Shown here piece after piece: positions 57,025-58,706 of a stretch of 64,000 nucleotides of DNA. Position numbers and translations under genes: made by a program. Source of the DNA: Parasegetibacter sp. NRK P23 (GTDB taxonomy: Bacteria > Bacteroidota > Bacteroidia > Chitinophagales > Chitinophagaceae); assembly GCF_023721715.1 (NCBI RefSeq), contig NZ_JAMDLG010000001.1, positions 3,921,655 to 3,985,654 on the forward strand. The letters run 5' to 3'. Every line of letters begins with the position of its first letter. The stretch's first letter is position 1. The notes under the pieces were generated by a model that did no database searches, was not told the DNA's origin, and was given only the letters and a program-made list of their open reading frames with translations.

Positions 57025-57202
57025 GTGCGCGGCGTTTTCTGTCTTCCTTACAAATGGAACGTTTGGGTTCCGGCACGGCTTCATAATCATATGGGCAATG
57101 CCTGCACCCGTTTCCGCAGCAATGGCCGCGCTTCAGGTGAAAGGCCTCCGTTAACACCATCAGTCCGGCTTCATTAAAATAAAAATCAATTCCCTCCTTC
57201 AT
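57002..57202 (-). CDS. DUF5522 small zinc-ribbon-like protein
   Basis: The 66-residue protein has a clear four-cysteine cluster, CCGNGCRHCPYDYEAV (two adjacent cysteines, then CxxC), and a helical start (NEAGLMVLTEAFHLKRGH). This matches DUF5522 and suggests metal binding. The start at 57202 overlaps the trmB stop by 17 bp, and a GTG at 57214 is also in frame. It overlaps the ATL gene at the other end by 23 bp, so the three genes are translationally linked. The function of the family is unknown. Confidence 0.8.
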   Translation of the reverse strand: MKEGIDFYFNEAGLMVLTEAFHLKRGHCCGNGCRHCPYDYEAVPEPKRSICKEDRKRRAHEGNANV

Positions 57203-57899
57203 CGGCTGTTTCACGGAGCATTTCTTTTAAGATGGTGTCTTTTTCAACGGGCAGATCAACATTGAGCCTAAACTGAAGGTAATGAATCCGGTTGGAGCCA
57301 GCAATATCCAGGCTTTCATAATGGGTTTTGATCTGAAGTTCGGGGTGAACGTTTTCTTCCGAGAAAACATTTTCTTTGTCTACAAGCAGTTCAAGCCCGT
57401 ACACTCCAATTACTGTTTTAGTAAAATGGTAAAGGCTGGGCGAATCTGTTTTGAGGTGAATGATGCCGTCTTTCTTCAGGAGCTGCTGGTATCTCCGGAG
57501 AAACACGGGGTGTGTCAATCTTTTTTTCAGTTTAGAGAAGCGCAGTTGCGGGTCGGGGAACGTGATCCATATTTCAGCCACTTCCTCCGCCGCGAAATAT
57601 TGGGTCACCTGGTCTATTTGTGAGCGGATGAACGCCACGTTGCCGAGCTGCTCTTTCAGTGCGGTTCTTGCCCCCACCCAAATCCTGTTCCCTTTCAGAT
57701 CGACACCAATAAAGTTTCTTTCGGGGTACATCCTCCCGAGTCCAACGGCATATTCTCCTTTCCCGCAGGCCAGTTCCAGTGTAATGGGGTTTGTATTGCT
57801 GAAATGCTTCTTCCACTGTCCCGGCATGTTGGGTGGATATTCAAAAACATTCGAGAAGCCGCGGATATCGGCGAAGCGCTCTAATTTATTCTGTCCCAT
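57186..57899 (-). CDS. trmB: tRNA (guanine-N7)-methyltransferase TrmB
   Basis: The 237-residue enzyme makes m7G46 in tRNA with S-adenosylmethionine. The SAM motif LELACGKGEYAVGLGRMYP starts near residue 40, with IGVDLKGNRIWVGA next. The substrate-side motif ITFPDPQLRFSKLKKRL is the family's PDPW-type segment with a Q-L-R variant. The start at 57899 is preferred because it lies 4 bp after the -7 box TACCTTTG (57904-57911), and the upstream frame (to 58022) lacks family features. It is the first gene of an operon with the DUF5522 and ATL genes. Confidence 0.93.
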   Translation of the reverse strand: MGQNKLERFADIRGFSNVFEYPPNMPGQWKKHFSNTNPITLELACGKGEYAVGLGRMYPERNFIGVDLKGNRIWVGARTALKEQLGNVAFIRSQIDQVTQYFAAEEVAEIWITFPDPQLRFSKLKKRLTHPVFLRRYQQLLKKDGIIHLKTDSPSLYHFTKTVIGVYGLELLVDKENVFSEENVHPELQIKTHYESLDIAGSNRIHYLQFRLNVDLPVEKDTILKEMLRETADEGGN

Positions 57900-57903
57900 C
57901 CCG

Positions 57904-57911
57904 CAAAGGTA
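57904..57911 (-). promoter_or_regulatory. -7 element of the trmB operon
   Basis: On the minus strand, TACCTTTG (57904-57911) is an exact match to TAnnTTTG and lies 4 nt before the trmB ATG, suggesting a leaderless message. No -33 element was found. Confidence 0.5.
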
Positions 57912-58354
57912 AGCAGCCGGGATGGGAAATATGTCGATTGAGAAGCCTAAACGCTGTATACGGAAACTGGTGCATGGTGGTACCCGGAGATGAGTGTGTT
58001 CCTGCCACATAATTTCTTTCAAGCTCTTACTGGCAATTGATTATAGCGTAAGCAGACTAAAACCCTTTCGGCAACCAAAGTATTTGAACGGGTAAAAAGT
58101 GCGGGAAAACCCTGTTCTACCCCAGGGAAAACAACGTCGGTGGCACCGGTTCGGGAAACCGCTGTTAGCGCTAAAAACCCCAGAAACCTTGCCCCCAAAG
58201 GCTTCGGTCAAAGTCCAAGGTAAAAAAACTGAAAAATGTTTAATCACTGAGATTCAGGAAGAAAAACACTGATAAATAGCACCCTGCACCAAAATGTATT
58301 GTCGATAATCAACAGCCAGCGTTGCGTCTGCGAGAAGCAAAGCTGCGAAGCAGT

Positions 58355-58450
58355 CGCCGTTGCGAGAAAAGAAAAAATCTGAAGGGGAAAGCAAAAAAAA
58401 TTGCAAGCCGCAACCATGTTTGTGTGGTAGAACATAGCAACGACTTGCAA
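58355..58450. repeat. REP-like intergenic element (copy B)
   Basis: The 13-base core CGCCGTTGCGAGA (58355-58367) is identical to that of copy A at 3656-3668. Around it are degenerate inverted pieces (CAGTCG...GTTGC near 58351 and GCAACGACTTGC near 58437) that can form an imperfect hairpin. It lies in the gene-free stretch 57900-58471, next to the tRNA-like RNA. Confidence 0.5.
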
Positions 58451-58470
58451 CTTATACGCAAAACAGAGAG

Positions 58471-58638
58471 CTGTAGAGGGAGGAGTCGAACCTCCACGGA
58501 GTAGTTAGCCATAGCACAAAATATTGAGTGGTCAACCCTTCCTGAAAGCATTGCTGCCCGCAGGTCTATGCTACGTTTATCCCATGATCCCCACCCCCGA
58601 GACAAGAGGGCATGTCTGCCAGTTTCATCACTCCACAG
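58471..58638 (-). ncRNA. tRNA-like structured RNA with a ~98-nt insert
   Basis: On the minus strand the ends pair as a tRNA acceptor: 58631-58638 with 58471-58478 (8 bp, one G-U). A canonical T arm (58479-58495) has a 5-bp stem GGAGG/CCTCC and a TTCGACT loop, directly abutting the acceptor. A tRNA-Leu-like D arm (ATG 58628-58626, CAT 58614-58612, 11-nt loop with GG) is followed by an anticodon-like arm (CCCTC/GGGGG, 58610-58594, loop TTGTCTC). Between anticodon-like and T arms lies a 98-nt insert (58496-58593). Its own pairings include CATAG/CTATG and a GCAA tetraloop stem. No CCA is encoded. A normal tRNA would have a purine after the anticodon; here it is T. Confidence 0.6.
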
Positions 58639-58706
58639 TATGTATCGGCTTCTGCCGTAAGAACTTTGATAGTGCAATATTAAGGCAATTCTCCTTTAGT
58701 TTGCAA

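Follow-up and report, generated by a model that had tools for sequence, protein, structure and literature searches.

A conserved tRNA-derived RNA gene family in Bacteroidota and viral contigs, and its possible role as an amino-acid carrier

The RNA element and its locus

The window analysed here, a stretch of 64,000 nucleotides from Parasegetibacter sp. NRK P23, holds a tRNA-like RNA element on its minus strand and, divergent from it, a gene for an AsnC-type regulator (Table 1). An initial annotation had read a cloverleaf with an unusual insert from the letters alone, and all of the cloverleaf parts it named are present. Specifically, the acceptor-like stem of 8 bp consists, in the window letters, of 7 bp plus a C(-1):G73 pair, followed by U8-G9; the T arm with its TTCGACT loop does abut the acceptor; and the tRNA-Leu-like D arm has the 11-nt loop described, which is identical to the D loop of this genome's own tRNA-Leu(TAG). 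The 98-nt structured insert also sits at the place of a variable arm and contains, in the window copy, a CATAG/CTATG stem with a GCAA loop. The location given for the element was right, and its ends were each short by one base, as judged from the span of the covariance model match.

Table 1. Features of the RNA locus, in window coordinates
Feature	Position	Strand	Evidence or remark
Whole RNA element, A(-2) to C74	58470..58639	-	covariance model match 163.2 bits, E 2.1e-51; alignment
Acceptor 5′ strand U1-G7, CTGTGGAG	58631..58637	-	helix 1; U1 = 58637, C(-1) at 58638
Acceptor 3′ strand and G73, paired with the 5′ strand as CTGTGGAG/CTCTACAG	58471..58478	-	A72 = 58472, G73 = 58471
D arm, 3-bp stem, 11-nt loop AAACTGGCAGA	58612..58628	-	
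Anticodon arm, stem CCCTC/GGGGG, loop TTGTCTC (58605-58599)	58594..58610	-	alignments
Anticodon-loop positions	G34 58603, U35 58602, C36 58601, U37 58600, C38 58599	-	
Variable-arm insert, 98 nt	58496..58593	-	helices 4-6 covary
Parts of the insert: GRRG/CYYC basal stem, 5′ bulge, 3-bp stem, internal loop, upper stem, GGTTGACC stretch			
T arm GGAGG-TTCGACT-CCTCC, abutting the acceptor	58479..58495	-	helix 7, 100% of cells paired
Promoter-like element of Bacteroidota -7 type, TAATATTGCAC	58672..58682	-	motif scan
boxA-like GTTCTT in the leader	58659..58664	-	motif scan
Intrinsic terminator, 20-bp hairpin and U run	58390..58452	-	-25.7 kcal/mol, z -5.22, 0/200 shuffles
Divergent AsnC-type regulator gene, 155 aa	58792..59259	+	NCBIfam, Pfam

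Across the aligned copies, the internal loop of the variable arm is A-rich, with GATAAA opposite CTAA, and the upper stem varies. An extra GGTNGACC stretch is found in long forms of the RNA, the window copy among them; short forms have a total length of about 110-130 nt. Tandem copies are frequent (19 of 132 clusters have two, 4 have three and 1 has five); the Parasegetibacter genome has a single copy.

The sequences flanking the element have the predicted layout of an independent transcription unit, with a promoter-like element and a terminator. TAATATTGCAC fits TANN[AT]TTG, which we take to be the Bacteroidota -7 consensus. Of 30 copies, 24 have this motif in the 90 nt before the RNA (mean of shuffles 4.0), and 20 have G[TC]TCTT there (mean of shuffles 1.1); 4 of the 34 aligned copies were omitted from these upstream counts, each sitting behind another copy. 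The GTTCTT of the leader resembles a boxA. Elements of this kind occur in stable-RNA operons, and the motif hints at antitermination. A simple terminator scan of the locus found none and missed the hairpin because the scan's loop limit is 8; a sigma-70 promoter scan was uninformative. Further downstream of the RNA, at 57189-57998 on the minus strand, lies a gene for TrmB, the tRNA m7G46 methyltransferase (model score 226.5 bits), and an apparently TrmB-homologous ORF cluster, named by inspection, is downstream of the RNA in 17 of 128 loci.

A covarying gene family and its linked regulator

Comparative evidence is decisive in establishing that the RNA feature is a real, conserved gene family. 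Single-sequence folding, tried as an arbiter of structure, could not decide: the folding energy of the element is unremarkable (z -1.23), and 23 of 200 shuffles fold equally well. The structure is given here as it appears in an alignment of 34 full elements, taken from blastn-matched loci of the family and order. In this alignment 97.0% of 1199 cells are paired, with 100% in helix 1, the acceptor, and 20 of 36 pairs have changes on both sides. There are 107 double-change cells versus 28 in shuffles, a number reached by none of 500 shuffles, and slid structures, used as a control, are just 45-58% paired. Given no structure, RNAalifold recovered the acceptor, anticodon, T and basal variable-arm helices from the 34 copies (23 pairs, 8 of them double-changed); the D stem and the upper variable arm were not recovered in that run.

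A covariance model search found 120 copies in 90 further loci. In the larger set of 114 distinct sequences, 96.1% of 3945 cells are paired and both sides change at 25 of 36 pairs, including D-stem pair 11-24, which is changed on both sides in 15 of the 114. Covariation in related genomes had been set beforehand as a test of the element, and it is present, with 607 double changes versus 137 in shuffles in an alignment that is fitted to the structure and biased towards it. Acceptor pairs 4-69 to 7-66 covary freely among 58 distinct copies.

When 59 genomes from the family and order were searched by blastn, 31 had an RNA match (the Parasegetibacter genome included; some matches partial). Of 395 genomes across the phylum searched with the covariance model, 40 have matches of at least 93 bits, and the next-best matches reach at most 62.5 bits and are about the length of a class II tRNA; the 93-bit line was set after seeing this gap between 62.5 and 93.0, and the genomes were counted by hand. 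The 40 RNA-positive genomes span seven families, one of which (3 genomes) belongs to another class. A DNA pattern search of named genomes gave at least 120 stretches, and the 80 listed are all Bacteroidota by record title; genera among the stretches listed are Chitinophaga, Niabella, Dyadobacter, Spirosoma, Cyclobacterium, Algoriphagus, Marivirga and Phaeodactylibacter, together with one draft genome labelled Flavobacteriales. Its members come from the orders Chitinophagales, Saprospirales and Cytophagales, from a family of another class and from viral contigs, and a gene family of this breadth is neither a lone case of the pseudo-tRNA nor merely the processing mimic that had been offered as possibilities.

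Standard searches miss this family. ARAGORN called no tRNA in the window, nor did it call the element in 32 homologous loci or 80 viral loci, and RF00005 gives 43 tRNA hits in the genome, the element not among them. At gathering scores, Rfam 15 yields no match in the window and none in 18 RNA loci that include short forms, so that the match to an unrelated family which would have spoken against the element was sought and is absent at that score; below gathering, there is a single unrelated match of 13.1 bits (E 8.7) on the other strand. The tRNA-derived nature proposed for the element is borne out; it is a full, tRNA-Leu-like cloverleaf, and it covaries in relatives.

The divergent regulator scores best as AsnC in NCBIfam (157.5 bits, short of the cut-off of 227) versus 51.1 bits for Lrp, and it carries Pfam Lrp/AsnC domains. 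Where 500 nt or more of the sequence before a cluster is available, a regulator homologue sits upstream of the RNA in divergent orientation in 26 of 29, 18 of 26 and 47 of 71, in three locus sets that partly overlap and are not one independent sample; over all clusters the count is 91 of 132. The regulator is likewise divergent and upstream in the family of the other class, again scoring best as AsnC. An orthologue of at least 156 bits is present in 40 of 40 RNA-positive genomes versus 4 of 355 RNA-negative genomes, with the line set after seeing a gap from 144.5 to 156.9 and the 44 genomes counted by hand. Neither the RNA nor the regulator is present in G031 and G168, both from the same family as the window; G060 and G175 keep the regulator, and the region upstream of it is without the RNA. 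The cited part of PMC4482635 describes E. coli AsnC as an activator of asparagine synthetase A, with activation abolished by asparagine.

At two loci upstream of an AsnC-type gene where the RNA is missing (L231 and L233), a hairpin persists together with an element that resembles a promoter, the latter plain to see in L231. They flank a short shared stretch, roughly GGTT(T)ATAATTGGTT, which is possibly another small RNA.

Conserved bases and the GatB pattern

To describe the conserved bases we used 58 distinct copies that the model had found in 44 loci, with each of the 40 RNA-positive genomes represented; 7 of 20 stretches were omitted from this set as repeats of loci already included. Loop conservation was taken from these copies because the named-genome loci were retrieved by a pattern that fixes GTCTC. 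U1-A72, G2-C71, U3-A70, G73, C74, U35, C36 and C38 are invariant (58/58) and G34 is present in 55. Position 33 varies (T in 47, A in 7, C in 3, G in 1), as do position 37 (T in 48, C in 6, G in 4) and position 10 (A in 33, T in 13, G in 12). The D loop reads GGCA in every copy, so it is without U20a, and G73 is able to pair with a pyrimidine at (-1) in 52 of 58.

A decoding tRNA is defined by U33 and a purine at 37. Here, U33 is found in 47 of 58 copies and a purine at 37 in 4, in agreement with the initial annotation, which had seen that the loop breaks the rule of a purine after the anticodon; such a loop looks ill-suited to reading codons. A working, if unusual, decoding tRNA (for Asp, Leu or as a suppressor) would account for the full cloverleaf with elbow motifs, the GUC triplet and the frequent U33, and we consider it very improbable: it is at odds with the rarity of a purine at 37 and with the 98-nt insert, the genome already has a regular tRNA-Asp and five tRNA-Leu, and several phage tRNA arrays that accompany the RNA include their own tRNA-Asp.

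The invariant bases fall at known identity positions. The cited passages of PMC9976931 assign Asp identity mainly to G73, G34, U35, C36 and C38, and list G1-C72 and G10 as well for bacteria; they also state that U1-A72 confers GatCAB amidation on Asp-tRNA-Asn, and that G1-C72 and U20a block this amidation on tRNA-Asp. The five main AspRS determinants are present in 58, 55, 58, 58 and 58 of the 58 copies, respectively. G1-C72 is absent, U1-A72 standing in its place in all 58, and G10 is not fixed, the position being mixed. The features of a GatCAB substrate (U1-A72, no G1-C72, no U20a) are found in 58 of 58 copies. This genome's own tRNA-Asp carries both GatCAB anti-determinants, G1-C72 and U20a, and the RNA carries neither; U1-A72 also occurs in the genome's tRNA-Asn. 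Judged by these bases, the RNA joins an Asp-type anticodon loop to an Asn-type acceptor end. The generic regulatory RNA suggested earlier fits less well, as the conserved bases point instead to AspRS and GatCAB.

Three of the 40 RNA-positive genomes are without G34, reading CUC in G219 and G436 and UUC in G369. At the loci concerned (CTCTCTC in L235 and L384, CTTTCTC in L093; two families), C or U at 34 gives Glu-type triplets, and the amino acid has perhaps changed in these copies. Bacterial AspRSs are reported, in the cited part of PMC6523644, to glutamylate tRNA-Glu, and thus a Glu-type triplet need not exclude AspRS.

GatB was looked for after this identity reading, and GlnRS afterwards in the same 34 genomes, which had been hand-picked as RNA-positive and RNA-negative examples before the GatB question arose; GatCAB was judged by GatB alone. 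The result is the same in 34 of 34 genomes: those with the RNA or without GlnRS have GatB, and all others do not. All 18 RNA-positive genomes have GatB, and 15 of these also have GlnRS; among RNA-negative genomes, GatB occurs in 0 of 12 with GlnRS and in 4 of 4 without it. For the 27 genomes with GlnRS, Fisher p = 5.8e-8, a value that assumes independent genomes, though the genomes share ancestry. Within one family, 7 RNA-positive genomes have GatB and 2 RNA-negative genomes do not; in another, the numbers are 2 and 2. G031 and G168 in the window's family, and G060 and G175 in another, are without both RNA and GatB, and sister genomes of theirs have both. These losses are stronger evidence than the Fisher p, and such clean contrasts are few.

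In 33 of the 34 genomes a third class IIb hit has the size of an AsnRS, and AsnRS was confirmed in the Parasegetibacter genome and in G175. In the 15 RNA-positive genomes that have GlnRS and an AsnRS-sized hit, GatCAB has no obvious job. Searching the 34 genomes with PF00152 revealed no dedicated AspRS-like paralogue tied to the RNA: there are three hits in 30 genomes and four in G219 (the fourth at 122.7 bits), G390, G061 and G096, with no pattern relative to the RNA. In the cited parts of PMC4206432, AsnRS, GlnRS and GatCAB occur together in 67 (table) or 68 (text) of 547 genera, of which 18, Bacteroidetes included, are without asparagine synthetase. This 2014 survey offers tRNA-dependent Asn synthesis as the reason for GatCAB beside AsnRS and GlnRS, and explains it by tRNA-Asn with a relaxed AspRS (PMC4206432). 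That explanation is possible for the Parasegetibacter genome because its tRNA-Asn has U1-A72. The RNA described here is a candidate for the missing part where the three enzymes co-occur.

Another reading is that the tRNA body is the scaffold of a regulatory RNA that acts by base pairing, with NGUCUC as its seed and AsnC as its controller; the GatB pattern would then reflect shared ancestry. The strongly conserved loop, the divergent regulator and the anticodon stem, in which 3 of 5 pairs are invariant across the 58 copies, agree with such a role. It would leave unexplained both the invariant acceptor end and the joint absence of GatB and RNA from G031, G168, G060 and G175. Moreover, the conservation tracks AspRS positions and forms no continuous seed, with 33 and 37 drifting, and we hold this reading to be quite unlikely.

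Proposed function, viral copies and known relatives

Taken together, four lines of evidence (the fixed bases, the AsnC link, the GatB/GlnRS pattern and a GatCAB without a job) lead us to infer that the RNA is a dedicated, non-decoding amino-acid carrier, which AspRS would charge and on which GatCAB would turn Asp to Asn; we put the probability of this at roughly 0.55. The fuller proposal, in which a reusable RNA with an Asp loop and an Asn-type acceptor serves as the carrier for making asparagine, under an asparagine-sensing regulator, is more tentative and somewhat short of even odds. The steps that we infer run from expression and maturation through charging, amidation and ribosome exclusion to the fate of Asn. 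The RNA would be transcribed from its own promoter under the AsnC-type regulator, and its ends would be matured in a tRNA-like manner. AspRS would charge it with Asp through G34-U35-C36-C38 and G73, and GatCAB would convert Asp-RNA to Asn-RNA, accepting it because U1-A72 is present and U20a absent. A pyrimidine at 37 in most copies, the free position 33 and the bulky variable arm would exclude the RNA from the ribosome, so that an Asn-loaded RNA with a GUC triplet would not put Asn at Asp codons. Asn would then be released or handed on.

Several points count against a carrier. Three RNA-positive genomes are without G34, and G1-C72 and G10 are absent; the discriminator G73 would be paired if (-1) were kept after maturation, and the 98-nt arm might collide with a class II synthetase. 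No AspRS-like gene accompanies the RNA in the 34 genomes. Since the genome's tRNA-Asn has U1-A72, a non-discriminating AspRS acting on it could justify GatCAB without the RNA, and the need for Asn alone does not explain carriage by phages. Finally, in an older sample given in the cited part of PMC3927822, 12 of 14 Bacteroidetes genomes have GlnRS and no gatCAB, and one has both.

A DNA pattern matched 119 viral stretches, and the 80 listed, when searched with the model, all hold the element (76-141 bits); 79 matches cover the whole model and one is cut by the contig end. G34 is present in 108 of 108 viral loci retrieved with 32-34 and 37 free and 35, 36 and 38 fixed by the pattern, and in the same loci position 37 is T in 106, A in 1 and C in 1. 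A tRNA or tmRNA gene lies within 2.5 kb of the RNA in 44 of 80 viral loci, genes near the viral copies include terminase, portal and PhoH, and the 80 viral stretches searched hold no homologue of the AsnC-type regulator. Two phage copies used as queries had no match in the INPHARED annotated phage genomes. Some of the viral stretches L256-L335 have 14-26 tRNA/tmRNA genes, L294 and L327 for example, each including tmRNA, and a lone tRNA-Cys adjoins the RNA in three contigs of uncultivated phages (L264, L276 and L322).

Carriage among phage tRNA arrays would be explained if the RNA were a decoy in the conflict between host and phage, resembling tRNA-Asp and drawing off anticodon nucleases or other defences directed at tRNAs. 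The whole or nearly whole model matches at all 80 viral loci and the nearby tRNA or tmRNA genes at 44 of them accord with this; a decoy explains neither why the host copy lies next to AsnC nor why the RNA goes with GatB, and we regard it as improbable.

The inserts of phage copies differ from those of hosts in their symmetry. The mean longest palindrome is 8.1 nt in 55 distinct phage inserts versus 5.9 in mononucleotide shuffles, and 5.8 in host inserts (n = 145) versus 5.8 shuffled. This suggests, for the phage copies, that they may form kissing-loop dimers. Phage variable arms such as those of L284, L265 and L276 have different perfect palindromes at the same place; the letters differ and the symmetry is kept.

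The same identity bases and phyletic pattern would also fit an RNA that acts as a scaffold or regulator of an AspRS-GatCAB complex working on tRNA-Asn, a tRNA mimic rather than a carrier, with AsnC setting its level. U1-A72 in the genome's tRNA-Asn is compatible with this, as are the dimers suggested by the palindromic loops of phage copies, and tRNA-like RNAs that bind synthetases without being substrates are known (mascRNA, and the thrS and yeast AspRS mRNAs, in the cited part of PMC9976931). However, G73 with C74, and likewise U1-A72, are more strictly conserved than binding alone seems to require, and we judge a scaffold unlikely, if less so than the other alternatives.

Whatever its function, a conserved RNA gene family in Bacteroidota and viral contigs has been missed by ARAGORN and Rfam. 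If the RNA is indeed a carrier, the tRNA body has a new job, in amino-acid synthesis rather than decoding; the question of why some bacteria with AsnRS and GlnRS keep GatCAB, raised in the cited part of PMC4206432, would have an answer; and phages would carry the RNA as an auxiliary metabolic RNA. The claim is directly testable with known enzymes and one transcript.

We call the RNA new because it was compared with tRNA, tmRNA, allo-tRNA, Y RNA and the families of Rfam 15 and fits none of them; no known decoding or non-decoding class was found to which it belongs, although its body is plainly tRNA-derived. A search of the open-licence PMC literature, with subscription papers mostly outside it, gave no apparent description. 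tmRNA shares the tRNA-like ends, but the RNA has a D stem and an anticodon arm; tmRNA was rejected, as the initial annotation had already held, and so was a replacement for it: RF00023 matches six places in the genome, none at the element, and the real tmRNA is elsewhere. The bacterial Y RNA YrlA also mimics tRNA. This candidate was rejected as well, the Parasegetibacter genome being without its partner, the Ro/TROVE protein (0 PF05731 matches; the control matches 1 of 14). tRNA-Leu resembles the RNA in its D arm, its class II layout and the two bases between variable arm and T stem, whereas the RNA has G73 (58/58) in place of the A73 of the genome's tRNA-Leu, a 98-nt arm and an N-U-C triplet.

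tRNA-Sec has a long D stem and UCA, in contrast to the 3-bp D stem, 11-nt loop and N-U-C triplet of the RNA. The two are alike in their long variable arms, and the acceptor/T branch of 13 bp given for tRNA-Sec in the cited part of PMC7609411 would be equalled by an 8/5 branch of the RNA if (-1):73 is counted (52/58). Allo-tRNAs are, in the same source, irregular tRNAs, some with GUC and some unused in E. coli translation, with 8/4 or 9/3 acceptor/T branches and from other phyla (PMC7609411). The RNA has neither branch, its T stem being 5 bp and its acceptor 7 bp plus (-1):73 in 52 of 58 copies.

Staphylococcal cell-wall bridges use a non-decoding tRNA-Gly, which offers a likeness of another kind, that of a tRNA body devoted to metabolism and not to decoding; there, the amino acid is different, and there is no giant arm and no GatCAB. 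The route of non-discriminating AspRS and GatCAB in Deinococcus, Thermus and Bdellovibrio, as presented in the cited part of PMC4206432, amidates Asp on an RNA with U1-A72. Its carrier is the decoding tRNA-Asn and its AspRS must be relaxed, whereas a separate RNA with an Asp triplet would let an ordinary AspRS serve.
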